30,062 nucleotides of DNA. Origin: a virus. Positions 1 through 10,071 of the stretch are shown one piece after another. The translations under genes and the position numbers were made by a program. Every line of letters starts with the position of its first letter. Position 1 is the first letter of the stretch. The notes under the pieces are model-generated. The model was not told the origin of the DNA, did no database searches, and saw only the letters and a list, made by a program, of their open reading frames with translations. Where the stretch lies: the IMG/VR virus record IMGVR_UViG_3300037321_000049, positions 1 through 30,062 of that record, one strand, 5' to 3'.

Positions 1-238
1 CCTCGTGCTCCCGCGTTGACAGATCGCCGCTGACCGTCACCTTGCCGCCCTTGGTGAGATACTGCGCCACCTTTTCGCCGCGCAGGCCAAACATGGCGCA
101 GTCAAACCAGAGCGTGCGCTTTTTATCCCCGAACCCGTCGTTGACGGCGACAGACCACCTTGTGACCTTGTCGCCGCCTTTCATCTCGTGAACTGCCGCA
201 TCTTTGCCGATGTTGCCCGCAATCGTAACGACCTTCAT
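1..238 (-). CDS. ssb: Single-stranded DNA-binding protein (SSB), 3' end cut by window edge
   Basis: Translating the reverse strand from the ATG at 238 gives 79 codons that begin MKVVTIAGNIGKDAAV and continue through RWSVAVND, WFDCAMFG, GEKVAQYLTKGGKVTVSGDL. This is the OB-fold core of bacterial and phage SSB proteins. The C-terminal half, including any acidic tip that would bind partner proteins, lies outside the window. The start codon overlaps the stop of the RecT-like gene as ATGA, so the two are translationally coupled. The protein would coat single-stranded DNA during phage replication and recombination beside the annealing protein and exonuclease upstream. Family assignment is confident; the length and C-terminus are unknown. 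Confidence 0.93.
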   Translation of the reverse strand, partial: MKVVTIAGNIGKDAAVHEMKGGDKVTRWSVAVNDGFGDKKRTLWFDCAMFGLRGEKVAQYLTKGGKVTVSGDLSTREHE

Positions 239-966
239 TTGCTTTCCTCGATCCACTCGGCGTGCGGGTTGTCCTCGATGACCTCGCCCGTCTCCTCATC
301 GTGCTGCACCGGCACCGGCTCCGGCTCATCCTCAGGCTCCGGCAACTGCGGCGCGAACCGAGGCCCGCCACGGCGAGGCGCTGGCGTCACGTCGCGCGCT
401 GCGTCGGGGCCGTAGTCGCTCACCTCCTCGGCAACGGCCATGCCCATCAGCGCGTCCGCTGCACCGTCGCGCACCGCGAATGCCGTGGCGCGGTTCATCA
501 ACATGCGCGTCGGGTATTGCTTCCAAGGCCCGGCCTTGCCAGCGAGGCCCGCGTTCTCCGCGTCCGCCATCGAGAACGTGCGCTTGAGAACTTGGCCGCT
601 TGCTCGGGTCAGGGTTGCGGTTGCGACCGCGTGCTTGCCCTCACCCGTGACCTCGCAGTCAATCATATGCCCAGCGCGCAGCACCAAGGCCCGAAGCGCG
701 TCACCCCAAATGGTCGGGCGCCCGTTGACGATGGCGATGGCGCTCAGGGCTTGCATCGGCGCCAGGCCAATTTCCATTCCTTTAAGGATTGCCGCCATGA
801 TTTTCTCGGGGTTTTTCTGAAAGTCCCTCGGGATCATATCCCCGCCGCCGCTGAGCGCTTGCGCGAGCCGGTAGGCTTGATCGATATCTTGGGGGATGAT
901 CGCGGTCAGCGTGCCGCCGCAGGTGACGGGGGCGCGGTCCTCGCGCTTGGCGATGCCGTTAGTCAT
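235..966 (-). CDS. RecT-like single-strand annealing protein
   Basis: 243 aa. After a short leader, the segment IPRDFQKNPEKIMAAILKGM followed by EIGLAPMQALSAIAIVNGRP matches the RecT-family pattern (a helical stretch, then GL.P.QA....I.NGRP), as does the later WKQYPTRMLMNRA. The C-terminal 60 residues are Pro- and acid-rich (PEPEDEPEPVPVQHDEETGE) and probably disordered, which is common in phage RecT/ERF proteins and may contact SSB. The start overlaps the stop of the preceding gene (ATGA) and the stop overlaps the SSB start. With the exonuclease at 1998-2948 it forms a RecE/RecT (Red-like) homologous recombination pair. Assignment is from motif recognition only; a more distant annealing family such as ERF is the main alternative. 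Confidence 0.85.
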   Translation of the reverse strand: MTNGIAKREDRAPVTCGGTLTAIIPQDIDQAYRLAQALSGGGDMIPRDFQKNPEKIMAAILKGMEIGLAPMQALSAIAIVNGRPTIWGDALRALVLRAGHMIDCEVTGEGKHAVATATLTRASGQVLKRTFSMADAENAGLAGKAGPWKQYPTRMLMNRATAFAVRDGAADALMGMAVAEEVSDYGPDAARDVTPAPRRGGPRFAPQLPEPEDEPEPVPVQHDEETGEVIEDNPHAEWIEESK

Positions 967-1268
967 GCTGTTGCCTCCTTGGCGATGGCGCGGTCGATGA
1001 GTGCCAGCACGTCCTCTTGCGTGCGGTCCGGAGCGTCATTCCACTCGGTGAGGTTGGACGATGAACTGAGATAAAGATCATCGTCTCCAAGGGAGAGAAA
1101 TAAAGCAGCAAACGCCAATTCCCTTGGTTTATAGTCTGGCGCGGCTTGGCCCATTGCGCCTAAAAGGCACCAGCATTCCACACCATCAACCACGCGCTTA
1201 CATTTTCCCTGCGTCCAGCCCTGCGCGATCAGCTTGCGCGCCTCGGCGAGCGTTGCCGCGACGCTCAT
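963..1268 (-). CDS. DUF6197-like small protein
   Basis: 101 aa, coupled on both sides by ATGA overlaps. The layout, an N-terminal helix with GWTQGKCKR, then [12 protein letters not shown], and a C-terminal [18 protein letters not shown], is the pattern I associate with DUF6197, found in phages and actinobacterial or proteobacterial genomes with no known function. The C-terminal WND plus RT.E.V..L is the strongest part of the match. Its position between GapR and the annealing protein suggests expression with replication genes, but no function can be inferred. Confidence 0.7.
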
Positions 1269-1531
1269 GCCAGCATACCCAGCGCCTGCATATACAGATC
1301 AAGCATGGCTTCGGCCTCCGACCGCTCGTCGGCGGTCTTCTTGCGCAGGCGGATCACCTCGCGCAGAATCTTCGGATCAAACCCGTTGCCCTTGGCTTCG
1401 GCGTAGACCTCCTTCACCTGCTCGGCGATTTCCGCCTTCTCGGCTTCGAGCGTTTCGATGCGCTCGATGATGCCGCGAAGCTGCGCGCCGTGAACCGTGG
1501 TGCTGTGGTTGTCGTCGATAAGGTCGGTCAT
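1265..1531 (-). CDS. gapR: GapR-like nucleoid-associated protein (DUF2312)
   Basis: 88 aa. The core, with [20 protein letters not shown] followed by [20 protein letters not shown] and [10 protein letters not shown], is a near-canonical DUF2312 protein. Caulobacter GapR is the characterised member: it binds overtwisted AT-rich DNA ahead of replication forks as a coiled-coil tetramer. The ATG at 1531 is preferred over 1546 because GAGGA lies eight bases before 1531, whereas it directly abuts 1546. DUF2312 is essentially alphaproteobacterial and is the best host marker in the window. In a phage replication block it could relieve positive supercoils on phage DNA or occupy host GapR sites; that role is inference. 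Confidence 0.93.
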
Positions 1532-1533
1532 GT
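1513..1533. repeat. 21-bp direct repeat at two gene starts, copy 1
   Basis: The + strand text at 1513-1533 and at 1983-2003 is identical at 20 of 21 positions (core ataaggtcggtcatgt). Each copy contains the reverse-strand start codon and first five to seven codons of a gene (gapR here, the hypothetical protein at the other copy). The simplest reading is that one gene start was copied onto the other, or that the segment between them was inserted by recombination at the repeat. Confidence 0.8.
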
Positions 1534-1542
1534 TGTCATTCC

Positions 1543-2001
1543 TCAAAACTGAATTGCAACGCGGGGGACATCCCCGGCGATGATGGCGTTGATTGCGGCT
1601 GTGGCGGCTTCCGCTCCGATGGCGGGAGTTAGCGCCTTGACCGCCGCGGCAATAACCGACGCGGCGAGGCGGTCGTACTTGGCTCTCTCTTTATCAAGGC
1701 GGTCGATTGCCCCGGCGAGTGAGGCGTTCAAAGATTCAAGCACTGAGGCAATGGCGGCTGCAGCGCGCTCTTCAAATTCATCCCATTCACTCCCTTGGGG
1801 AAGGTGCTCGATGATCGAAATGCGTTCGCAAATTTGCCAAGTTTCATTGTTTGCCGTGAAGCCACAAGTCGTTATGGAAGAAAACATAAGCTCTAGCGCA
1901 GCGACCCTGGCGGCTTCCTTGGTTTCCCAGTCCGACAGCGGCGCGCCCTGCTTCGTGGCACACACGGCTGCGAGCGATGTTTCGTCAATAAGGTCGGTCA
2001 T
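1543..2001 (-). CDS. Hypothetical helical protein
   Basis: 152 aa, unrecognised. The N-terminal half contains [15 protein letters not shown] and [17 protein letters not shown]; the C-terminal half is alanine-rich helix ([20 protein letters not shown]) without membrane character. The start overlaps the exonuclease stop by ATGA, and the stop lies 12 bases before the gapR start. It begins MTDLIDE, almost the same as GapR (MTDLIDD), because both gene starts lie in a 21-bp repeat. Nothing visible indicates a function. Confidence 0.8.
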
Positions 2002-2003
2002 GT
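1983..2003. repeat. 21-bp direct repeat at two gene starts, copy 2
   Basis: Second copy of the repeat at 1513-1533, 470 bp away, differing only at one base (A for G at its fifth position). It spans the start of the hypothetical gene ending at 1543. Confidence 0.8.
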
Positions 2004-2948
2004 CGTTGCCCCTCCTGAGGCGATTTCGATTGAGAGCGCCGCTGCGTCACGGCTTGGCTTGGTCTTGCCGCGAGGCGTGAGGGCGTGCAGCGTGTGGCTG
2101 CGGTCCTCCACCTGCGAGGCCATCCAGATCGGCGGCGAGATTTCGACGATTCCCGGCTTGGAATAATCGGGCCATTCCCCGGTTGCTAGGCAGCGCCGCC
2201 AAGTCTTGCGGGCCAAAGATGTTTGGCTTCGTCCAACATCCATGAATGCCTCGTCGAGCGCAACAACGGAAACGCAATGCGGGCGAGTTTTTTCGACGAA
2301 CACAAAGCGCATACCCTTGAGGGCCATCCCGGCGGCGCGGAAAGTGTCAAGATAATGCTCGTGCTGGATGTGATACCCAAACGCCACGATGGATTGCGTC
2401 ACGGCGTCATAGTGCGCGCTCGTTGTGGTTTTCAGGTCGTAGAGCCAGCCGTCTGCGCCGACATAATCTGCCATCGCCCGGCATTGCACGCCCTCGACCT
2501 CAGCGATTGCGACAACCTCAGCGCGCGATGGGTCCGAGAACACTTCGGGCAAGCCTATGCGCTTGAGGGCTGTTTTGACCTTGGCCGCCATATCCAAAAC
2601 CTTGGCGGCGTCCTTCTCCAACAGCGGCGTGTAGCCCTCGGCCCTCGCCTCGTCGCGTTGCTGGCGCGCATCCTTGCTGCGCCAATCGTCATGGGCGATG
2701 ACGCGGATCGACTCGCCTGCGCTCAAAACTGCGGTGTGCGCTGCGGTGCCAACGTCAAACAAATCCTTAAATTCAGGCACGCAATCGGGATCAAGGCGCG
2801 GTGACGATGCGAATGCGTGCGCCGGGCTTTCGCGGAGGATCTTGCGCGCGAGGCTGGATGAGAGGCTCGGCGTCTCGCACGGGTCGGCGTGGTAGACCGC
2901 AGGCGAGATTCCGTAGTGGATGCCGGGGGGTAGGGTTGTGCGGGTCAT
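1998..2948 (-). CDS. PD-(D/E)XK exonuclease, RecE/DUF3799-like
   Basis: 316 aa. Visible nuclease features in order: an N-terminal substrate-handling region (YHADPCETPSLSSSLARKIL), a GTAAH motif at about 68-71, E150 in AIAEVEGVQCRAMADYV with D161, then DLK at 171-173 (YDLKTTTSA), and YHIQHEHYLD near 192-201, matching motif I, the D...(D/E)xK core and the Q..Y motif of YqaJ/RecE-type 5'-3' exonucleases. Such enzymes resect duplex ends for a RecT partner, here encoded three genes downstream. Gene overlaps by ATGA on both sides. Fold family is confident; exonuclease rather than another PD-(D/E)XK activity is inferred from the RecT and SSB neighbours. Confidence 0.85.
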   Translation of the reverse strand: MTRTTLPPGIHYGISPAVYHADPCETPSLSSSLARKILRESPAHAFASSPRLDPDCVPEFKDLFDVGTAAHTAVLSAGESIRVIAHDDWRSKDARQQRDEARAEGYTPLLEKDAAKVLDMAAKVKTALKRIGLPEVFSDPSRAEVVAIAEVEGVQCRAMADYVGADGWLYDLKTTTSAHYDAVTQSIVAFGYHIQHEHYLDTFRAAGMALKGMRFVFVEKTRPHCVSVVALDEAFMDVGRSQTSLARKTWRRCLATGEWPDYSKPGIVEISPPIWMASQVEDRSHTLHALTPRGKTKPSRDAAALSIEIASGGATT

Positions 2949-3718
2949 GCGTCTTGCTCCTCTTTAATTCCATTGGGCCTGTGGCGATCTATCGTCGCCT
3001 TGCGTTGCGCGTCGGCTTTGCGGTCAATGAACGCGTCGTGCTCCTCGACTAGCGTGCGCTCAAACCCTGAGAGCCACTCCGGCTCCTGCGGCAGGTCGTG
3101 CAGATCCATCGCCTTGTCGTATGCGGCGACGCGCTTGCCATGAATCGTGTTGGCGCATTTGATAATGGTTGCCATCATGATCGCGGTGCCAGTCCTGCCA
3201 TCTCGGACGCTGGCGAGTAGATCATTGATGCGCTCAGCCCCCAAGCGGATTGCATCGCGGTCTTGCGCTTCGGGCTTCCTGTTGTTTTTCCGCACCCATT
3301 GCGCCGCGTAGACGTGCGACCCGTCAAGAAAATGCTGGCGCGCATCGGGCGAGTGGATCCAGTCCTTCGCCAACGCCTCGCCTGGATGCTCCACCGCGTC
3401 AGCGGGCGCGGCTGATTCGGTCGGCGCGTAGTCCGCGATCTTCGGCCCGACCTTTTTATAAGCGCCGATGATCTCCTTAATCTCAGGCCACCACCCCGAG
3501 CTTGCCGTCATGTCAAGCTCATCGGCCAAGCGGTCGAGCCAATGGCGAAGGCTGTCGGCTGTGGCGTCGGTTGGCGTGTGGCGATTGAGAAGCCGCACGA
3601 TAGCCTCGAATTCGTCCTCTCGCGATTCCTCGGTGTCGAGCCGCTTGGGTGGCGTCTTGCGCTTGATCCAGCGCGCCAGCCATCCGCCTATGATTGATTG
3701 GCGTTCATTCAAGTGCAT
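2945..3718 (-). CDS. Hypothetical protein downstream of replication initiator
   Basis: 257 aa, mostly charged helices, no membrane segment or recognisable catalytic motif. Patches such as IGGWLARWIKRKTPPKRLD, LRHWLDRLADELDMTASSGWWPE and a C-terminal basic tail (DRKADAQRKATIDRHR) are visible. It overlaps the initiator gene by 14 bases and the exonuclease start by ATGA. Its slot after a gpO-like initiator is where lambda-like phages carry a helicase loader (gpP or DnaC-like), but no AAA+ Walker motifs are present, so loader function is only a positional guess. Confidence 0.8.
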   Translation of the reverse strand: MHLNERQSIIGGWLARWIKRKTPPKRLDTEESREDEFEAIVRLLNRHTPTDATADSLRHWLDRLADELDMTASSGWWPEIKEIIGAYKKVGPKIADYAPTESAAPADAVEHPGEALAKDWIHSPDARQHFLDGSHVYAAQWVRKNNRKPEAQDRDAIRLGAERINDLLASVRDGRTGTAIMMATIIKCANTIHGKRVAAYDKAMDLHDLPQEPEWLSGFERTLVEEHDAFIDRKADAQRKATIDRHRPNGIKEEQDA

Positions 3719-4559
3719 ATTTTTTCCTCATCCGTTCGAGTGTGTCGCTGCCGTCTCTCACGCGGGCCTCCATCTCACTCGGCGCGCGCTGTCTGCCCTC
3801 AACCGCCTTGAGCGCTGGCGCCGACTTCAGGCCCGCGTGCCGTTGCATTGGCTGATCGAAATATCGAAACGCCCCGATCGGTTCATAATGCGGACCCGCT
3901 GCGATGTGGCTGATGACCTCGATAATTTCATCGTCGCTCAGGCCCAGTCCGTGCCACCTGGCGACGCTCATCATGTCGGTCGGGGATCCGATCATTCGGC
4001 CTGTTGCCGTCATGCCCGATCGGTCGTGTTTTGCTGCCACTAGGATGCGCTCTCGGATGCCAAAGCATTCTTCCTCAACGGGGGCCTCGCCTACGCGCGC
4101 GCTACCACCACCACCATCTTCTAGGGTATCTAAGGGGTTGGGGGGATGCTGGCGTCCTATTTTAGGGACGCTACCGTCCGGTTTTAGCGTTAAAATAGGA
4201 TGCTGGCGTCCGGTTTCGGGTTTGCCCATATAGGACGCTGGCGTCCGGTTTTCTTCCTCAATATCGGGAGCGGGCGACGGGTTTTTTGAGGATGATTCAG
4301 GGGCGAAAAGGAGCCGATAATCGTTCGCCTTTTCACGCCCGCGATGGACTGTGCATTGCAGCAATCCGCGCGCTTCAAGTCGGCGGATTGCCTTCCTAGC
4401 GTTGCGCGGATCGACGCAACATTTTCGCCCAAGCTCGGCCATGGACATGAACAAAAAGCCCCCCGCGCTGGCACGGTCGGCAAGCGCAACCAGGGCCAAG
4501 CGCTCGCCTGCCGTGACGCCCTCGACTAGCCATGACGCGTTGAGGTATTGGTTGCTCAC
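3705..4559 (-). CDS. Helix-turn-helix replication initiator (gpO-like)
   Basis: 284 aa. Residues 1-85 form a winged-helix module: GVTAGERLALVALADRASAG, then SMAELGRKCCVDPRNARKAI followed by RRLEARGLL, the pattern of phage replication proteins of the lambda O / DnaD-like kind. A low-complexity middle (about 90-150) is encoded by the iteron array at 4144-4252 and repeats GRQHP twice. The C-terminal part (ERILVAAKHDRSG, GLSDDEIIEVISHIAAGPHY) is helical and could contact a helicase or loader. The start overlaps the HTH gene upstream by ATGA. An initiator gene containing its own binding repeats is the arrangement seen in lambda O. It could instead be a transcription regulator, but the repeats favour initiation. 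Confidence 0.75.
   Translation of the reverse strand: MSNQYLNASWLVEGVTAGERLALVALADRASAGGFLFMSMAELGRKCCVDPRNARKAIRRLEARGLLQCTVHRGREKANDYRLLFAPESSSKNPSPAPDIEEENRTPASYMGKPETGRQHPILTLKPDGSVPKIGRQHPPNPLDTLEDGGGGSARVGEAPVEEECFGIRERILVAAKHDRSGMTATGRMIGSPTDMMSVARWHGLGLSDDEIIEVISHIAAGPHYEPIGAFRYFDQPMQRHAGLKSAPALKAVEGRQRAPSEMEARVRDGSDTLERMRKKYALE
4144..4252. repeat. Four iteron-like repeats, candidate replication origin
   Basis: Four copies of a ~20-bp element with + strand form GGAYGCTGGCGTCCGGTTTT begin at about 4144, 4166, 4198 and 4233. Copy four has a perfect GGACGC-TG-GCGTCC palindrome; copies one and three differ by one base (GGATGC); copy two is more diverged (GGACGCTACCGTCC) and copy one lacks the CGG tail. 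They lie inside the initiator coding sequence, in the low-complexity middle. Spacing is about 22, 32 and 35 bp, so roughly but not exactly phased to helical turns. Repeats are directly seen; origin function is inference from lambda O-type organisation. Confidence 0.7.
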
Positions 4560-4780
4560 GCCTGCGCCCTTCTCAGCCCCGTGACCGGGCCAAAGTCCTC
4601 GACAAGCCTCAACAGCGCCGCCATGTGCGCCGCTGCCAGATTGCTAACCGGCCTTGACGATGCGCCCGCCTCGGCCTCCCACTTGCGAATGGTCCTCGGG
4701 TTAACGCCAAACGCGCGCCCGGCCTGAATCTGCGTCAGGCCAAGGGCGTTGCGTCCCGATTTGAATTGCGCGGGGGTCAA
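4556..4780 (-). CDS. Small HTH DNA-binding protein
   Basis: 74 aa from a TTG start at 4780. That start overlaps the upstream stop as TTGA and has a strong purine-rich stretch (GAAGAGGGGGAAGG) just before it, which is why it is chosen over the longer TTG form at 4831. LTPAQFKSGRNALGLTQIQA followed by GRAFGVNPRTIRKWE is a clear helix-turn-helix of the Cro/XRE type. It is a paralogue of the protein at 5242-5469. Its C-terminal helix (HMAALLRLVEDFG) probably dimerises. Likely a regulator of the leftward block; target unknown. Confidence 0.8.
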   Translation of the reverse strand: MTPAQFKSGRNALGLTQIQAGRAFGVNPRTIRKWEAEAGASSRPVSNLAAAHMAALLRLVEDFGPVTGLRRAQA

Positions 4781-5175
4781 TTTCCTTCCCCCTCTTCCCA
4801 ATCTTGCATATCTTCGGCGACGATTGCCCAAGCGTCTTCAACGGTCCAATCAAATCCCGCAGACCCAAACTCCTCGCCAAGCGATTTCAGCAAGCCGATT
4901 GAGTAATTTGTCGCGTAAAGCCTTTGGATGCTCCAGCGATGTTTGACGGTAACGCGATTGGCAATTTGAGCAATAAAGCCCGACAGGGTGAGCCCCCCGA
5001 CCGCAGTTACGATTTCAGCCACCCTCACCTTTTGACGCGGAATAACGGGCTCTCCTTCCAGCCCGGTTCCCATCTGCATATAAAGCCAATGTGGCCGCGC
5101 TGGCAGCTTGGCGTAGCACTGACCGCAGAGCCAGTAGCCTGAAACAAAGTCACCGTGAAGGTGTTCGCACGTCAT
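4777..5175 (-). CDS. Hypothetical protein with N-terminal Cys/His cluster
   Basis: 132 aa from ATG 5175, preceded by GAGGAAGG; the 13 codons upstream to 5214 lack a better site. The N-terminus MTCEHLHGDFVSGYWLCGQC has C3, H5, H7 and a C-x2-C, a possible zinc-binding knuckle. The rest (VAEIVTAVGGLTLSGFIAQI, WTVEDAWAIVAEDMQDW) is helical and ends in an acidic tail. It is the first gene after the candidate promoter at 5210-5238. Function not recognised. Confidence 0.75.
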   Translation of the reverse strand: MTCEHLHGDFVSGYWLCGQCYAKLPARPHWLYMQMGTGLEGEPVIPRQKVRVAEIVTAVGGLTLSGFIAQIANRVTVKHRWSIQRLYATNYSIGLLKSLGEEFGSAGFDWTVEDAWAIVAEDMQDWEEGEGN

Positions 5176-5209
5176 GTCGCCGCCTTCCTCTTGTTGATTC
5201 CGTTCGCAA

Positions 5210-5238
5210 CACATAGGCCCAATGGGCCGCTATGTCAA
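5210..5238 (-). promoter_or_regulatory. Leftward promoter overlapped by a dyad operator
   Basis: On the reverse strand TTGACA (5238-5233) is followed by a 17-base spacer and TATGTG (5215-5210). The whole element is also an interrupted palindrome on the + strand: ACATAG GCCC AAT GGGC CG CTATGT at 5211-5235. A perfect -35 hexamer with canonical spacing and a symmetrical spacer suggests a repressible promoter for the replication operon starting at 5175. A repressor is not identified; the two paralogous HTH proteins on either side are the obvious candidates. Confidence 0.6.
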
Positions 5239-5241
5239 CGC

Positions 5242-5469
5242 CTAAACGCGCCCATCCACCTCACCCACCGGCCACCCATCCGGCCTAAACCCGGCGAGAT
5301 ACGCCGCCATCAGCGTCGCCGCCTTGCCCGGCACAGGGGCCGCGCTGGCAAGCTCCGGCGCGCGGACCCACCGCTGGAGCGTCGAGAGGCTGACGCCCCA
5401 GAGCGGGGCCGCTTGGGTTTGCGTGAGGTTGAGCGCGGCTAGGCCTGCGCGGAATGCGGCGGGGGTCAT
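5242..5469 (-). CDS. Small HTH DNA-binding protein (paralogue of 4556-4780)
   Basis: 75 aa. MTPAAFRAGLAALNLTQTQA followed by APLWGVSLSTLQRWVRAPEL is a helix-turn-helix with the same TP..F..G..AL.LTQ.QA...GV...T...W pattern as the protein at 4556-4780. The tail (KAATLMAAYLAGFRPDGWPV) may mediate dimerisation. The start overlaps the HNH gene stop by ATGA. Located directly upstream of the dyad-containing promoter at 5210-5238, so it may regulate it. Cro- or transposase-accessory-like HTH proteins are the nearest general class. Confidence 0.8.
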   Translation of the reverse strand: MTPAAFRAGLAALNLTQTQAAPLWGVSLSTLQRWVRAPELASAAPVPGKAATLMAAYLAGFRPDGWPVGEVDGRV

Positions 5470-6032
5470 GGTTTCCTCCCGTGGTTGGCGTGGTAGCCGT
5501 ATTCGATGTTGGCTTTGGCGCGCGCTTCGATTGCCTCATCTTTGTTTTTGAAGCGACCGATAGCTATCTGCCTCCCGTTTTTATATATTTTAGCCAACCA
5601 GACCAGACGTCTATTGTCCCAATAAACGCCGATTGTGCCGCTTGTGTTCTTAATGCCAATAGCGCGATTTTTGCTATTTTCTTGGCTTGTAGCGCTTCTA
5701 AGGTTTGAGATTCTGTTGTCAGACTTGTTTCCGTTGATATGATCTATTTGGCGTTCGGGCCATGCACCCGAGTATATTGCCCACGCAACACGGTGCGAAA
5801 GGTAGTGCCTGACAAATATCCTTCCACTAAAATACCCGCTAGACATTTTTGCGTTGAGCGCGGGCTTGCCTGCGCATCTTGCATTCCAAGTATTCATAGC
5901 GACAAGTGCGGACTTTTTCCCGTCAGTAAAAAACGAAACGTCCCGCACGCGCCAGACAAGCGCGCCGGTCTCCGGGTCGTAATCTATCAGCTGGCGAAGG
6001 ACGCTGGGGGATGGTTGCTCTTTATCGGTCAT
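5466..6032 (-). CDS. HNH endonuclease with AP2 DNA-binding domain
   Basis: 188 aa. The HNH core is at about 80-112: HRVAWAIYSGAWP, then QIDHINGNKSDNRISNLR with the catalytic DH and the distal N. An AP2-type DNA-binding domain follows at about 128-175 (SGTIGVYWDNRRLVWLAKIY then FKNKDEAIEAR). This HNH-AP2 fusion is the common free-standing homing-type endonuclease of phages. The gene is visibly richer in A+T than its neighbours (for example 5570-5600 and 5660-5710), consistent with independent mobility. It is nevertheless fitted into the operon by ATGA overlaps on both sides, so it is not an obvious disruptive insertion. Confidence 0.92.
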   Translation of the reverse strand: MTDKEQPSPSVLRQLIDYDPETGALVWRVRDVSFFTDGKKSALVAMNTWNARCAGKPALNAKMSSGYFSGRIFVRHYLSHRVAWAIYSGAWPERQIDHINGNKSDNRISNLRSATSQENSKNRAIGIKNTSGTIGVYWDNRRLVWLAKIYKNGRQIAIGRFKNKDEAIEARAKANIEYGYHANHGRKP

Positions 6033-6217
6033 GGCATTGCCTCGCTCACCAATGCGTTCGCCTGGTTTATTTGATCGGAGGTTGCAGGCGTGCCATTTTT
6101 GCGCGGCAAGCTACTGACAAAGCGGCATATATTTGCTTGATCTCTTATTGATCGGGGCAGGGTGCAAATATGAATGAGGACGTCGCCAATCGTCACCTCG
6201 CGCACAATCCCGGTCAT
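6029..6217 (-). CDS. Hypothetical small protein
   Basis: 62 aa from ATG 6217, which forms an ATGA overlap with the upstream stop; the longer reading to 6304 only adds an Arg/Gly-rich shadow of the neighbouring frame. Sequence begins MTGIVREVTIGDVLIHICTL and contains RDQANICRFVSSLPRKNGTP. No domain recognised. It lies between a nuclease-like gene and the HNH gene in the early leftward operon. Confidence 0.7.
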   Translation of the reverse strand: MTGIVREVTIGDVLIHICTLPRSIRDQANICRFVSSLPRKNGTPATSDQINQANALVSEAMP

Positions 6218-6507
6218 AGCATCGCCCCCACGCGCGCGGCCCATGCGAGCGCGCTTTCCTCCGACTCGATCACCACGGCCTGACCGCGCCACTCGGCGTG
6301 CCACGCGACCTGAGCGGGGCTGAGCATCCTTGCGGATGGCGGTTTCGCGCCGTCTTTGACCTCCACAAGGTGATTGACGCCATGCGCCCCGAGCATCAGG
6401 TCCGGCACGCCTCGGCCTACCGCGTGGAGGTGCTGGACGCTAAAGCCGAGCTTTCGAAACAGCTTGACCAACGCGGCCTGGTTCGCGTCAACGCGCGCGC
6501 GGATCAT
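6214..6507 (-). CDS. VRR-NUC-like PD-(D/E)XK nuclease
   Basis: 97 aa. GRGVPDLMLGAHGVNHLVEV followed by KDGAKPPSARMLSPAQVAWH is the VRR-NUC signature: D36 in PDL, E49 and K51 in the E-V-K triad, then the P.Q..WH helix. Single-domain VRR-NUC proteins of this size are frequent in phages and are thought to be structure-specific nucleases acting on replication or recombination intermediates (Holliday-junction resolution has been shown for some). The gene is coupled by ATGA overlaps on both sides. Confidence 0.85.
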   Translation of the reverse strand: MIRARVDANQAALVKLFRKLGFSVQHLHAVGRGVPDLMLGAHGVNHLVEVKDGAKPPSARMLSPAQVAWHAEWRGQAVVIESEESALAWAARVGAML

Positions 6508-6713
6508 GCCGCCTTCCTCCGCTTCAGCAGCCCAAGAGCCGCCCGCACCTTAGCAATCGTCGCCATTTTGCATTCCCTCCCTAAGCGCAGGTTGTTGACG
6601 TAGGCCGCATCGTTGAGCGCCATCCTCCCAAATTCGGTGACGGACATGCCGACCCTGAGGCAAGCGGCCTCGATCTCGGCGAGCAATTCGGGGTGTGCTG
6701 GTTTGTGTGTCAT
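6504..6713 (-). CDS. Cro-like HTH regulator
   Basis: 69 aa. The segment LRVGMSVTEFGRMALNDAAY then VNNLRLGRECKMATIAKVRA fits the small HTH family of alphaproteobacteria with the pattern GM...FG..A..D...V..LR.GR.....T..KVR. First gene of the leftward early operon; its start codon lies 7 bases from the -10 of the divergent-region promoter and 10 bases from the nearest operator. By position it is the best candidate for the protein that binds the ATATTG-N8-CAATAT sites and represses its own operon, as Cro does. That binding is inference. Confidence 0.8.
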   Translation of the reverse strand: MTHKPAHPELLAEIEAACLRVGMSVTEFGRMALNDAAYVNNLRLGRECKMATIAKVRAALGLLKRRKAA

Positions 6714-6719
6714 CCCGCG

Positions 6720-6747
6720 ATTATATTGGACGCTGGCAATATCGCAA
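6720..6747 (-). promoter_or_regulatory. Leftward early promoter
   Basis: Reverse strand: TTGCGA (6747-6742), 16-base spacer, then a perfect TATAAT (6725-6720), followed by the HTH start codon at 6713. The spacer is almost entirely the operator at 6723-6742. If transcription starts about seven bases after the -10, the HTH mRNA is essentially leaderless: no Shine-Dalgarno could lie on it. Confidence 0.75.
6723..6742. promoter_or_regulatory. Operator copy 1 (ATATTG-N8-CAATAT)
   Basis: ATATTGGACGCTGGCAATAT, a perfect 6-bp inverted repeat with eight central bases. It fills the spacer of the leftward promoter, so a bound protein would block polymerase. Two further copies are at 6812-6831 and 9659-9678. 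Confidence 0.8.
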
Positions 6748-6806
6748 GCGCCATCGGCCTAGCGCGGGGTGCGCGAATTATTTTTGCCCGGCGGTGAACT
6801 TTGTGG

Positions 6807-6836
6807 TTGCGATATTGGACGCGGCCAATTAATAAT
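6807..6836 (+). promoter_or_regulatory. Rightward early promoter
   Basis: TTGCGA (6807-6812), 17-base spacer, TAATAA (6830-6835, or AATAAT one base on). The -35 and the start of the spacer (TTGCGATATTG) are identical to the leftward promoter read on its own strand, so the two divergent promoters look like copies of one element. It would drive the operon starting at 6878, with a ~35-base leader that carries AAGGAG. Confidence 0.65.
6812..6831. promoter_or_regulatory. Operator copy 2
   Basis: ATATTGGACGCGGCCAATTA. Left half is identical to copy 1; right half is CAATTA in place of CAATAT, but the inner ATTGG...CCAAT arms are perfectly symmetrical. Sits between the -35 and -10 of the rightward promoter. 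Confidence 0.75.
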
Positions 6837-6877
6837 AACGGACGGACGGAAAAACGACAACGCAAGGAGACGAAAAC

Positions 6878-7261
6878 ATGATCCCCCCCTCCTACTACGG
6901 CGCAGAGCCGGACGACGACGAGCGCGCTTTTGACGCCGCCGCCGAAATCCTCGCCGAAAGGCTCCGGGCCGCAAACAAAGCGATCCGAGACGCCGCCCGC
7001 ATCGCCCTTCCCGCCGTCGCGTTTTTGGAATCGCTCGGCGTCACGGTCAACGGTTACGACCTGAGCCGCGACGAAACGCTGGCGATGCTCGGCGGTATCA
7101 GCGCGAGCGCAGAGGCGGACATTCTCGACGCTTGCGTGCATAACTACGCCACCGCGATTGACGCCCTGAACGGGCTGCTGGGCGACGCTGAGCAAGCGCA
7201 GGCCGACGCGATCAAGCAGGGCGCGGCGATTGACGCCGCATACAATGGAGACGCAGCATGA
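6878..7261 (+). CDS. Hypothetical protein, first gene of rightward early operon
   Basis: 127 aa, ATG preceded by AAGGAG at 9 bases. Acidic N-terminus (YYGAEPDDDERAFDAAAEIL) then mostly alanine-rich helices; no membrane segment or recognised motif. The stop overlaps the next start by ATGA. Being first behind a strong operator-controlled promoter suggests abundant early expression, typical of phage host-takeover or counter-defence proteins, but the sequence itself gives no function. Confidence 0.8.
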   Translation: MIPPSYYGAEPDDDERAFDAAAEILAERLRAANKAIRDAARIALPAVAFLESLGVTVNGYDLSRDETLAMLGGISASAEADILDACVHNYATAIDALNGLLGDAEQAQADAIKQGAAIDAAYNGDAA

Positions 7262-7485
7262 CAAACTCAGACATTGACCACCTCTTTGAGATCATCCCCG
7301 AGCGGCGGCAATTCATCGGAGGGTATATTTCCGGCATCCCCATTTTTGTGGTGCCTTGCCCGCGCGAAGGATTCCTGGTCTCAATCGACGACACCAAGAT
7401 TACTGCTTCAGGCGCGCGCCGTCTCGGCCTCGCGCTTCTCGCCGCAGCCGATGCCGCCGAAGCCGCCGGGGCGCGGATCAAATGA
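7258..7485 (+). CDS. Hypothetical protein
   Basis: 75 aa, coupled by ATGA at both ends. N-terminal half looks like a small beta domain (IIPERRQFIGGYISGIPIFV, FLVSIDDTKI); C-terminal half is an alanine-rich helix (LGLALLAAADAAEAAG). Unrecognised. Confidence 0.75.
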   Translation: MTNSDIDHLFEIIPERRQFIGGYISGIPIFVVPCPREGFLVSIDDTKITASGARRLGLALLAAADAAEAAGARIK

Positions 7486-7598
7486 GCGCCATCACTTGGC
7501 GCAACGCGCGCCTCGCCGCGACCACCGCAGCCGAGGCCGCGCTTGTGGCTCTCCTCGCGGCTGGGGTCGGGTTTCTGATTTTGGGAGTGACGCCATGA
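7482..7598 (+). CDS. Small single-pass membrane protein
   Basis: 38 aa: a short polar N-terminus (MSAITWRNARLAATTAAEA) followed by one hydrophobic segment (ALVALLAAGVGFLILGV). Start overlaps the previous stop and stop overlaps the next start, both as ATGA, which is the main support for so short a gene. Possibly an inner-membrane peptide acting early in infection; function unknown. Confidence 0.65.
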   Translation: MSAITWRNARLAATTAAEAALVALLAAGVGFLILGVTP

Positions 7599-8116
7599 CC
7601 GTTCCAGCCCCGATCCACAAAACGTGCCGATCCTGCGACACGCCAAAGCCGGTGACGGCTTTTCACTGGCGCAACCGAGCGCGCGGCGTGCGTCATTCAA
7701 CCTGCAAGGCGTGCCGGTGCGAGGACGAGCGGATGAGATACAACGAGCTGGAATTTGATCGCATCTATTTGGGCGGTCCCGGCCCGCGACCCCTGCCAGC
7801 AATCGCGCCAATCAATCCGCCGCTTCCGTGGGGCTACGGCATGACGCCGGACGACATGGCGGCGATGGACGAGGCGGACGCGGACCCGTTTCCGCCGGCT
7901 GTCTACGGCATGACCCCCAAGCGCGCGGCTGCGCTGAAATGGCTTAAAGACATTCAGAACATCCCGGCGACCACACCGGCGAGCGTGGTTGACCCGGCGG
8001 ACGCCTGCGCCGATCCTGACCCGATGGGCGACGGATCGGCCTGGGGCTGGGTGACGGTCGCCACGATAGGCGCGCTCGTGGCGCTGGTTGCCATTGTCGC
8101 GTGGGTGACGGTATGA
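7595..8116 (+). CDS. Zinc-ribbon protein with C-terminal membrane segment
   Basis: 173 aa. Residues 11-40 hold C-x2-C (C11, C14) and C-x2-C (C37, C40) with the intervening TPKPVTAFHWRNR, the zinc ribbon commonly found in front of phage HNH domains (KTC..C...K....F......G....C..C). No HNH follows here; instead comes a Pro-rich region with the phrase YGMTP twice, then a C-terminal hydrophobic helix (about 150-172, VATIGALVALVAIVAWV). ATGA-coupled on both sides. The combination of zinc ribbon and tail anchor is not one I recognise. Confidence 0.75.
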   Translation: MTVPAPIHKTCRSCDTPKPVTAFHWRNRARGVRHSTCKACRCEDERMRYNELEFDRIYLGGPGPRPLPAIAPINPPLPWGYGMTPDDMAAMDEADADPFPPAVYGMTPKRAAALKWLKDIQNIPATTPASVVDPADACADPDPMGDGSAWGWVTVATIGALVALVAIVAWVTV

Positions 8117-8337
8117 GCCGCTCCGCGTTTCTGCACCGCGCCGACGCGGCGTATCCGTTTCAAAACTGGCAACCGTTCCCGAGCGGCGCAATCGTTCAGG
8201 TAAAAAACCAATATGGGGTCTCGAGAATCGACATGGCCGAGAATCTTTGGTGGGGATATGAGCGAGGACTCAGTGTGCTGGGCGAAGCCGTCATTACGCG
8301 GGCGCGGCGCCTGGATCGCCCGAAGGTGACGGCATGA
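8113..8337 (+). CDS. Hypothetical protein
   Basis: 74 aa, ATGA-coupled at both ends. Contains FPSGAIVQVKNQYGVSRIDM then AENLWWGYERGLSVLGEAVI, suggestive of a small mixed alpha/beta fold. Soluble, unrecognised. Confidence 0.75.
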   Translation: MSRSAFLHRADAAYPFQNWQPFPSGAIVQVKNQYGVSRIDMAENLWWGYERGLSVLGEAVITRARRLDRPKVTA

Positions 8338-8714
8338 GCGCGCCAGATTGGGAGGGATTCGCGCGTGCAATCATGGCCTCTTGGCCTGAAAGCGGAGTTG
8401 ACGGCTGCGATATTCAAGATTTTGCGGTCAAATATCGGCTTATAAAATCGGTTGCGGGCGGGTTTGATGAGCGCGTTCATGCTGACGATTTCGGCGTAGG
8501 CGCGGAAGCTGGCGACGAATGGTTTATTCAGGCGTTTCCCGAGGCGCGCGACTGCCAGTGCGGCGGCGAGGCTACGCTGTCGCACGGCCACGCGCCCGGA
8601 GCGGGCGACGCCTGCGCGGCGTGGTGCTTGGATTGCGGCGCAACCGGGCCAGCGGATGAGGGCGAGGGCGACGCGGTGAAGGGCTGGAATGATATGATGG
8701 AGCGCAAGCCATGA
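8334..8714 (+). CDS. Protein with Lar-like zinc domain (restriction alleviation family)
   Basis: 126 aa, ATGA-coupled. The C-terminal half has C74-x-C76-GGEATL, AWC98LDC101GATGP and AVKGWN, the order C..CGGEA ... W.C..CGA.G......A...WN of the Lar family. Rac-prophage Lar alleviates type I restriction, but most proteins with this domain are uncharacterised. The first zinc pair is C-x-C rather than the usual C-x2-C. The N-terminal ~70 residues (WEGFARAIMASWPESGVDG) are an unrelated extension. In a cluster of unknown early genes this is the one clear hint of counter-defence. Confidence 0.65.
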   Translation: MSAPDWEGFARAIMASWPESGVDGCDIQDFAVKYRLIKSVAGGFDERVHADDFGVGAEAGDEWFIQAFPEARDCQCGGEATLSHGHAPGAGDACAAWCLDCGATGPADEGEGDAVKGWNDMMERKP

Positions 8715-8938
8715 GCGACCACACCCACGCCAAGCTGCGCGCCGACCTCGGAAGCGGGCCATTCTCAATGGACACGCTCTACGCAATGACGCGCGAATGG
8801 AAACCGCGATCAAACAGCTACAGGCTCCGGCGCACGATTGCCGGGTTTGTCCGGCGCGGTGACGTGCTGGTAATCGGCGTCGATGCGCGCGGTCGGCGGG
8901 TGTTCCGGCTCCCGGAGGTGGGGCCGTGCGCGTCTTGA
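8711..8938 (+). CDS. Hypothetical protein, possible winged helix
   Basis: 75 aa. GPFSMDTLYAMTREWKPRSN followed by SYRLRRTIAGFVRRGDVLVI has the feel of a winged helix (helix, helix, recognition helix with basic residues, then a two-strand wing VLVIGVDARGRRVFRL). Start is ATGA-coupled; the 3' end overlaps the next gene by 13 bases. DNA binding is tentative. Confidence 0.7.
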   Translation: MSDHTHAKLRADLGSGPFSMDTLYAMTREWKPRSNSYRLRRTIAGFVRRGDVLVIGVDARGRRVFRLPEVGPCAS

Positions 8939-9525
8939 TCGCCTGCGAGTTTAGCGGCACGGTGCGGCGCGCGTTTACCGCTCGCGGTCACGATGCATGG
9001 TCCTGCGATCTGCTACCCGCTGAGGACGGATCAAACCGGCACATCGTCGGAGACGCGCGCGACCTGCTAAATGACGGTTGGGACTTGCTCATGGTCGCGC
9101 ACCCGCCTTGCACGCGCCTCTGCAACAGCGGCGTGCGGTGGCTCACCAAGGCCCCGCCAGGCCGCACGCTCGCAGATATGTGGGCGGAGCTTGAGACGGG
9201 CGCGGCGCTGTTCTCGGCGTTCTGGAATGCGAAAATCCCGCGCATAGCGGTCGAGAATCCAGTGATGCACCGGCACGCCAAGGCATTGATCGAGGGCTAC
9301 GAGCCGCCCGCGCAGAGCGTCCAGCCGTGGCAGTATGGTCATGGCGAGGTCAAGCGGACTTGCCTGTGGCTGCGCGGCCTACCGGTTCTGACGCCGACCG
9401 ATGTGGTTGAGGGCCGAGAGGCTCGTGTGCATCGGATGCCGCCAGGCCCGAACCGTGGCAAGGAGCGCAGCCGGTTCTTCTCAGGAATTGCCGACGCGAT
9501 GGCGGATCAGTGGGGGGTCGCATAA
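8926..9525 (+). CDS. Cytosine-methyltransferase-like phage protein
   Basis: 199 aa from GTG 8926, with GGAGG eight bases before. LIACEFSG (4-11) resembles the SAM-binding loop, D28 in SCDLLP the acidic residue after strand two, and AHPPC62T the PC motif of C5-cytosine methylases; VRWL, RIAVENPVMH and a C-terminal ARVHRMPPGPNRGKERSRFF then G complete a family common in phages. It is much shorter than a full m5C methylase and has no obvious target-recognition domain, so it may act with a partner, modify free nucleotides or have lost activity. In phages such proteins could protect DNA from restriction. Family is recognised; activity is uncertain. Confidence 0.75.
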   Translation: MRVLIACEFSGTVRRAFTARGHDAWSCDLLPAEDGSNRHIVGDARDLLNDGWDLLMVAHPPCTRLCNSGVRWLTKAPPGRTLADMWAELETGAALFSAFWNAKIPRIAVENPVMHRHAKALIEGYEPPAQSVQPWQYGHGEVKRTCLWLRGLPVLTPTDVVEGREARVHRMPPGPNRGKERSRFFSGIADAMADQWGVA

Positions 9526-9623
9526 TGTACCGGAGATGCCGCTACCACCGCCAGCCCGACCCGAGATTTCTCATCCTCGCCGTGATGCTGGCCATCATGG
9601 GCGTAACTACTTTGCTCGCGTGA
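9525..9623 (+). CDS. Very small membrane protein
   Basis: 32 aa starting in a TAATG overlap with the methyltransferase-like gene. A basic N-terminus (MYRRCRYHRQPDPR) precedes a single hydrophobic helix (FLILAVMLAIMGVTTLLA). Supported by coupling, positive-inside topology and clean hydrophobicity. Function unknown. Confidence 0.6.
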   Translation: MYRRCRYHRQPDPRFLILAVMLAIMGVTTLLA

Positions 9624-9658
9624 CGGATGAGGCGTTGCGCGCGCCACGGCCCGCGTGC

Positions 9659-9678
9659 ATATTGGACGCGGGCAATAT
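9659..9678. promoter_or_regulatory. Operator copy 3, upstream of 9692 gene
   Basis: ATATTGGACGCGGGCAATAT, perfect 6-bp arms and the same core as copies 1 and 2. TATAAG (9676-9681) at its right edge could be a -10 element, but then the AAGGAG at 9680-9685 would fall within it and not be transcribed. It may therefore act as a roadblock within the operon or drive a leaderless transcript. The sequence from the operator through AAGGAGACGAAACATGA repeats what precedes the 6878 gene. Confidence 0.75.
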
Positions 9679-9691
9679 AAGGAGACGAAAC

Positions 9692-9904
9692 ATGAACATT
9701 CCAGGCCCTACCGAAGTGCATATCCGAGCGATGGCGGCCATCCTCGCGCAGCCCCGAGTTTGGCACATGAGCATAGATGAATTGCAAGAGGTCGCCGCCG
9801 CCGCCACTAACGGCAGGGCGAGGCCGTGGCGAGTGAAGTGCACCATCAAGATCATGCGCCGCGGGCGGGGCCTTGGTAATATCGTGAAGGGAGATACGCC
9901 ATGA
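9692..9904 (+). CDS. Hypothetical protein behind operator copy 3
   Basis: 70 aa, ATG with AAGGAG seven bases upstream. MNIPGPTEVHIRAMAAILAQ then MSIDELQEVAAAATNGRARP and a basic C-terminus (VKCTIKIMRRGRGLG). Helical and basic, possibly nucleic-acid binding. Together with 6878 it is one of two rightward genes directly preceded by the operator, so the two are probably co-regulated. Confidence 0.75.
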   Translation: MNIPGPTEVHIRAMAAILAQPRVWHMSIDELQEVAAAATNGRARPWRVKCTIKIMRRGRGLGNIVKGDTP

Positions 9905-10071
9905 CGTTCTCGCAAAAGCGCCGTCTGCTTATCCGCGTCGCATGGGCACTGTGGGCCTCAATCGTGGTCGCCATAATCATAGACGGGAGCGCGCCTTGGG
10001 CCGCGTATGGCGCGTGCGTGTCTGTGACGCTTTACGGTGCGCTCTTGCATTATTGCTTCATGCACGAATAA
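9901..10071 (+). CDS. Small two-pass membrane protein
   Basis: 56 aa, start overlaps the previous stop as ATGA. Basic start (MTFSQKRRLLIR), then hydrophobic segments VAWALWASIVVAIII and AAYGACVSVTLYGALL separated by a short loop, with a His/Cys-containing tail. Looks like an inner-membrane hairpin. Function unknown. Confidence 0.7.
   Translation: MTFSQKRRLLIRVAWALWASIVVAIIIDGSAPWAAYGACVSVTLYGALLHYCFMHE

Follow-up and report, generated by a model that had tools for sequence, protein, structure and literature searches.

A small Cro-like protein that probably turns down a virus's own early genes, with no partner repressor found beside it

The DNA considered here (the window) is a virus contig of 30,062 bases and 62% G+C, IMG/VR record IMGVR_UViG_3300037321_000049, and our subject is the control region between its two divergent early operons together with the adjoining gene for a helix-turn-helix (HTH) protein of 69 amino acids (aa). 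In phage lambda, the small HTH repressor Cro is encoded first in an early operon, dyad operators lie over both early promoters, and the partner of Cro is CI. The virus examined here, a bacterial one, probably turns down its own early genes with a protein of the lambda Cro kind, and does so without the usual partner repressor. From sequence comparison we think it likely that the 69-aa protein, as a homologue of Cro, represses its own promoter and that of the rightward operon, in which a third operator is located. Binding, repression, dimerisation, the role of the third operator and a lytic lifestyle are all presumed rather than observed. The elements on which the argument turns are these (operators are given without strand; ORF, open reading frame):

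6504 to 6713, minus strand: 69-aa HTH gene (ORF), first gene of the leftward early operon
6720 to 6747, minus strand: candidate promoter P_L, TTGCGA-16-TATAAT, 10 of 12 consensus bases, conserved in relatives
6723 to 6742: predicted operator 1, ATATTGGACGCTGGCAATAT, perfect 6-bp arms, inside the P_L spacer
6807 to 6836, plus strand: candidate promoter P_R, TTGCGA-17-TAATAA or TTGCGA-18-AATAAT, 9 of 12 consensus bases
6812 to 6831: predicted operator 2, ATATTGGACGCGGCCAATTA, right arm CAATTA for CAATAT, inside the P_R spacer
9635 to 9663, plus strand: weak candidate promoter over operator 3, TTGCGC-17-CATATT, read from the sequence
9659 to 9678: predicted operator 3, ATATTGGACGCGGGCAATAT, perfect arms, between genes of the rightward operon

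The three dyads are genuine and not a product of chance. All of them stand where a preliminary description of this DNA had placed them, two with perfect arms and that at 6812-6831 with one altered arm. The full dyad pattern, with up to 3 mismatches allowed, has 3 matches in the window and 0 in each of 100 dinucleotide shuffles, and a search with the arms only (ATATTG-N8-CAATAT, 2 mismatches at most) returns the identical 3 sites against 0.32 expected. Perfect 6-bp inverted repeats with a gap of 0-12 number 103 in the window, and only 3 of these, sites 1 and 3 included, have arms with at least 5 A/T. At its core, site 2 carries a perfect TTGG-N6-CCAA (TTGGACGCGGCCAA, at 6815), and sites 1 and 3 carry TTGG-N6-GCAA (at 6726 and 9662, respectively); downstream, AAGGAGACGAAA is common to sites 2 and 3.

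The two divergent promoters are sigma-70-like, and the sequence that the preliminary description had claimed for both, TTGCGATATTG, is indeed common to P_L and P_R. That description had also assigned the "first two" copies of the dyad to the spacers of these promoters, which holds for 6723-6742 and 6812-6831 but not for the copy at 9659, as this lies between genes and has no convincing promoter. The ATG of the 69-aa gene stands 7 nt past the end of the P_L -10 hexamer; judging from this spacing, the P_L transcript would start at or beside the ATG, at about 6713-6714, and the mRNA of the protein probably has little or no leader. Operator 3 is flanked by a 32-aa ORF (9525-9623) on one side and an ATG at 9692 on the other. 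We rejected it as the seat of a promoter of the P_L/P_R type, the -35 position being CGTGCA and the -10-like TATAAG reading TATCAG or TATCGT in two relatives. Both hexamers of the weak candidate TTGCGC-17-CATATT are identical in four phages, and its score falls under the cut-off of the promoter scan.

The 69-aa protein has no match in Pfam, PHROGs or NCBIfam, and none was detected to known Cro families. According to its AlphaFold2 model (pLDDT 87, four helices at residues 8-21, 25-33, 38-43 and 50-68), it is a lambda-repressor-like HTH fold. Searches with Foldseek and VIA-align matched the model to the 434, P22 c2 and lambda CI repressors, to SinR and to C-proteins including C.Esp1396I, with Foldseek probabilities up to 1.00 (0.99 for 434) and VIA Z scores of 5-6, although these Z scores are modest and the Foldseek E-values exceed 0.01. 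By sequence, the protein is a member of an unnamed alphaproteobacterial HTH family (loci L014, L015 and L020-L069 of our comparison), here called the S24-companion family, whose hidden Markov model it matches at an E-value of about 1e-22; it is the sole match of the family profile in the window, and it shares 30-46% identity with cellular members. A seeded genome search with a narrow alignment gave no matches, and a wider alignment gave 50 loci, mostly from Sphingomonadales, at 36-62% identity over the matched segment. Judged by this distribution of the family, the hosts of the virus are likely alphaproteobacterial.

In all 50 of these loci the family gene lies head-to-head with a gene for a CI-like S24 (CI/LexA-like) protein, which is the position of Cro, and the same arrangement occurs in Bradyrhizobium and Sphingomonas plasmids. 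The S24 assignment was confirmed by Pfam in 7 of the 8 partner proteins scanned, five of these coming from the 50 loci. Beside the phage gene the head-to-head S24 partner is absent, and the rightward operon starts on that side instead. The S24 profile, which matches in 50 of 50 cellular loci, has no match in the window or in the viral relatives; neither an S24 repressor nor an integrase was found among the window proteins scanned (which take in some but not all of the small ORFs, on a contig that is not closed), nor in any relative contig. As such, the full Cro/CI-type switch of the preliminary description is not borne out: an adjacent S24 partner was looked for and is absent, and we therefore do not class the system as such a switch. 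The stretch missing between the two ends of the window is represented in a related phage contig, L188, whose RecT is 85% identical to that of the window and whose gene run comprises initiator, RecT, SSB, Thy1, YfbR-like, ParB_N, Mom and large terminase. No S24 protein or integrase was found among the L188 proteins scanned, an absence that is only suggestive for the window phage because L188 is another phage.

A link between this family and a particular operator geometry is apparent in the cellular loci. Their S24-HTH control regions hold 31 TAGG-N6-CCTA sites in 9 kb, against 0 in the remaining 371 kb of these loci, and the spacing between TAGG and CCTA is 6 in 31 of 37 matches, other spacings being nearly absent. 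Among 52 more distant loci (the window included), symmetric NNGG-Ng-CCNN dyads are enriched at g=6 only, in 17 loci against 6.1 expected; with the window left out, the g=6 dyad occurs in 16 of 51 loci (corrected for 15 spacings, P is about 0.0025). The phage core, TTGG-N6-(C/G)CAA, has the same 14-bp geometry as the family dyad. In other Alphaproteobacteria the HTH domain also forms the N-terminal part of proteins of about 460 aa that resemble SAM-methyltransferases (L167, L174 and L189-L191; the call was made by eye). These five loci have TGGG-N6-CCCA upstream and in none is an S24 gene nearby, while the related L192 is without a perfect dyad. The retention of TGGG-N6-CCCA by members without S24 connects the dyad with the small HTH and not with S24 alone, and suggests that the methyltransferase-fused members regulate themselves. 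Several members with a tandem HTH domain likewise have no S24 neighbour. Tandem members (L169 and L197-L222) carry two copies of the domain in one ORF and occur several per genome in one alphaproteobacterial order; in L163 (1099-3111) the domain continues in frame, with no stop, into what appears by eye to be a class II fumarase.

The recognition helix may account for the half-site. At positions 36, 37 and 41, located at this helix, the phage protein has A, A and N where the family has P, R and D, departures that are consistent with a changed half-site. In the distant loci, the second base of the dyad is A in 6 of 7 cases with P at residue 36 and in 0 of 8 with another residue (Fisher P 0.0014, from a tally by eye and uncorrected for ancestry); in the phage, residues 36-37 are AA and the variable operator base is T. 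We put forward, tentatively, a wider proposal that goes beyond the repressor itself: that this HTH family, widespread and unannotated, obeys a simple operator rule, T-N-G-G-N6-C-C-N-A, in which residues 36-37, where the recognition helix begins, set the variable base (PR, PA or PG giving A, GK giving G, RD giving C, and AA of the phage giving T), and that in the phage lineage the CI half has been lost and the Cro half acts by itself, a third, stoperator-like site protecting a slot where genes are exchanged. The operator rule is in any case not universal, given that in L016 (Roseicitreum) no S24 was detected and no GG-N6-CC dyad is present, and that many of the distant loci do not show the perfect dyad, as counted below.

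Three viral contigs carry the same HTH gene, with proteins 90-93% identical to that of the window, and all three dyads are kept in each of them; the preliminary description had proposed a search for such co-conservation of protein and motif, and the pattern it named as contrary, the same gene beside unrelated intergenic sequence, was not seen. Site 1 is identical in the three relatives and falls within an invariant run of 35 alignment columns, 6716-6750. Site 2 of L006 has a core (GGCCGCGTCC) that matches exactly the reverse complement of the core in the other phages (GGACGCGGCC), a reversal to be expected, or at least tolerated, if the binder is symmetric. Site 3 varies at 1 of its 20 positions across the four phages; around it, the upstream GGCGTTGCGCGCGCCACGG and the dyad are retained in the relatives whereas the gene that follows differs, and one relative has a different methyltransferase-like gene upstream of the site. 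In L011 an extra gene (about 5515-5830) directly follows the ribosome-binding site of P_R, and P_R and site 3 therefore both look like points of gene exchange. L010 alone has an extra XRE-type repressor-like protein (4872-5120) within the rightward operon. When viral contigs were searched for the exact pattern, L004, L007 and L008 matched as well (ATATTGGACGCAAGCAATAT); we set them aside because the same stretch recurs in all three, the records hold no family member, and a few chance 17-base matches are expected in such a collection.

Comparison of fold, Cro position and dyad spacing thus lends strong support to the proposal, made in the preliminary description, that the 69-aa protein binds these sites and silences both operons, while the binding itself is what we infer. 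It is reasonable to postulate that a dimer of the protein would bind ATATTG(G/C)NCG-CGN(C/G)CAATAT, with its core TTGG-N6-CCAA, at operators 1 and 2. As these take up the space between -35 and -10 in P_L and P_R, their occupation would exclude RNA polymerase, and by this exclusion the leftward replication/recombination operon and the rightward operon would both be turned down, presumably once the 69-aa protein has accumulated. Operator 3, 2.8 kb downstream, could provide a second block in the rightward operon, ahead of its exchangeable distal genes, acting either as a roadblock to elongation or as a cover over a weak internal promoter. With the S24 gene absent from its place, the circuit resembles early shut-off by Cro alone and not a two-repressor switch.

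The resemblance to lambda lies in a small HTH protein of the lambda-repressor fold, encoded first in an early operon, with predicted dyad operators over both early promoters; the cellular members of the family extend it, being divergent to a CI-like S24 repressor. Unlike in lambda, the divergent side of the phage gene holds no CI-like gene and an operon of accessory genes starts there, and each promoter has one operator (three in lambda), with an extra operator inside the operon. The phage shares with the S24-companion family the homologous protein and the GG-N6-CC dyad in the control region, but differs in the half-site (TTGG versus TAGG), in the recognition helix (AAYVNN versus PR(L/F)VxD) and in the missing S24 partner. 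In mycobacteriophages of cluster A, many asymmetric 13-mer sites, oriented with transcription, are bound by a two-domain monomer (PMC9283540); like those operators and stoperators, the present sites occur both within promoters and inside an operon, in a short gap between genes, but they are three dyads and the protein is a single-domain one of 69 aa. Staphylococcus phage SA97 is virulent and has a partial lysogeny module in which the integrase is kept and cI- and cro-like genes are both absent (PMC4632378). As far as the window goes, a partial module without CI is common to both phages, although the window phage, unlike SA97 (PMC4632378), retains a Cro-type gene and predicted operators.

Several observations weigh against the circuit as drawn. 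Sites 1 and 3 each combine one TTGG half with one TTGC half, and operator 3 has no clear promoter, by the promoter scan and by comparison with the relatives. The perfect symmetric dyad is missing in 35 of the 52 distant loci. Compared with the remaining control region, the sites show only a weak excess of conservation (hypergeometric P 0.07 and 0.04), a signal that we do not use as a main argument because the three relatives are so close. Two other HTH proteins in the leftward operon are possible alternative binders, and the window and its relatives are contigs without end repeats, so that a repressor gene may lie at a distance. The last two points feed an alternative in which the main binder is the HTH protein encoded at 5242-5469 or 4556-4831, or a CI on the missing part of the genome, and the 69-aa protein is a minor partner or else a competitor for these sites, in the manner of Cro with CI. 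Both HTH genes are present, the control region of the cellular relatives is shared with an S24 repressor, and the window is not a closed genome; however, both HTH proteins fall outside the family associated with GG-N6-CC dyads, and in L188, which covers the part absent from the window, no S24 or integrase was found among the proteins scanned. We regard this alternative as unlikely.

A host regulator that binds the dyads and is exploited by the phage seems very improbable. In the likely alphaproteobacterial hosts there are indeed paralogous HTH/S24 pairs whose dyads share the 14-bp geometry, but the cellular half-site is TAGG and that of the phage TTGG, TAGG-N6-CCTA occurs nowhere in the window, and the phage has a family member of its own adjoining the sites. 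Scarcely any credence can be given to the notion that the dyads are recombination or gene-exchange junctions, or debris of duplicated promoters, and not operators. Among the four phages, different genes come right after site 3, an extra gene follows P_R in L011, and sites 2 and 3 share a downstream sequence, all as such junctions would have it; yet the spacers of the promoters are precisely where sites 1 and 2 fall, the dyad core has the geometry of the operator of the adjacent gene's family, and no recombinase was found in the window. Somewhat unlikely, finally, is a division in which sites 1 and 2 are operators and site 3 a non-functional duplicated copy: no clear promoter was found at site 3, but its arms are perfect and it has been kept in four phages, nearly invariant, despite changing neighbours. 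Repression by the 69-aa protein at its adjoining sites remains our preferred reading. It connects an unnamed family of small HTH proteins with a defined operator geometry and, across Alphaproteobacteria, with S24 repressors, and the pairs of protein and operator, which diverge in a few recognition-helix residues and a single operator position, form a natural series. If the phage is truly without CI, the Cro half has outlived the CI half with its operators kept, which would bear on the purpose of Cro in the absence of any lysogeny decision.

The operons governed by these promoters are laid out as follows:

235 to 6507, minus strand: remainder of the leftward operon, from profile matches of its proteins
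6878 to 10071, plus strand: rightward operon of small, mostly uncharacterised genes (ORFs)
8926 to 9525, plus strand: DNA methyltransferase-like gene in the rightward operon (phrog_757, E 1e-58)

Beyond the 69-aa gene, the leftward operon encodes a VRR-NUC-like nuclease, an HNH protein, the two HTH proteins (regulators of the phrog_14076/phrog_7950 type), an O-like initiator, a RecE-like exonuclease and RecT. The right-hand part of the window holds, on the minus strand, the head, tail, tape-measure, endolysin, portal and terminase genes. The phage collection that we searched gave no nucleotide match and no match to the HTH protein, and among terminase relatives (80 loci) a family member was present in none of the fetched loci, nor in the 15 of their contigs searched whole. 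In L188, a Mom-family DNA modification gene (8932-9609) adjoins the ParB_N gene. The window ORF 6029-6304 retains the start, MTGIVREVTIGD, of a DNA methyltransferase-like protein of 262-298 aa found in L010, L011 and L012; it diverges after this shared start and the HNH gene comes next, an arrangement that reads as a replaced methyltransferase.

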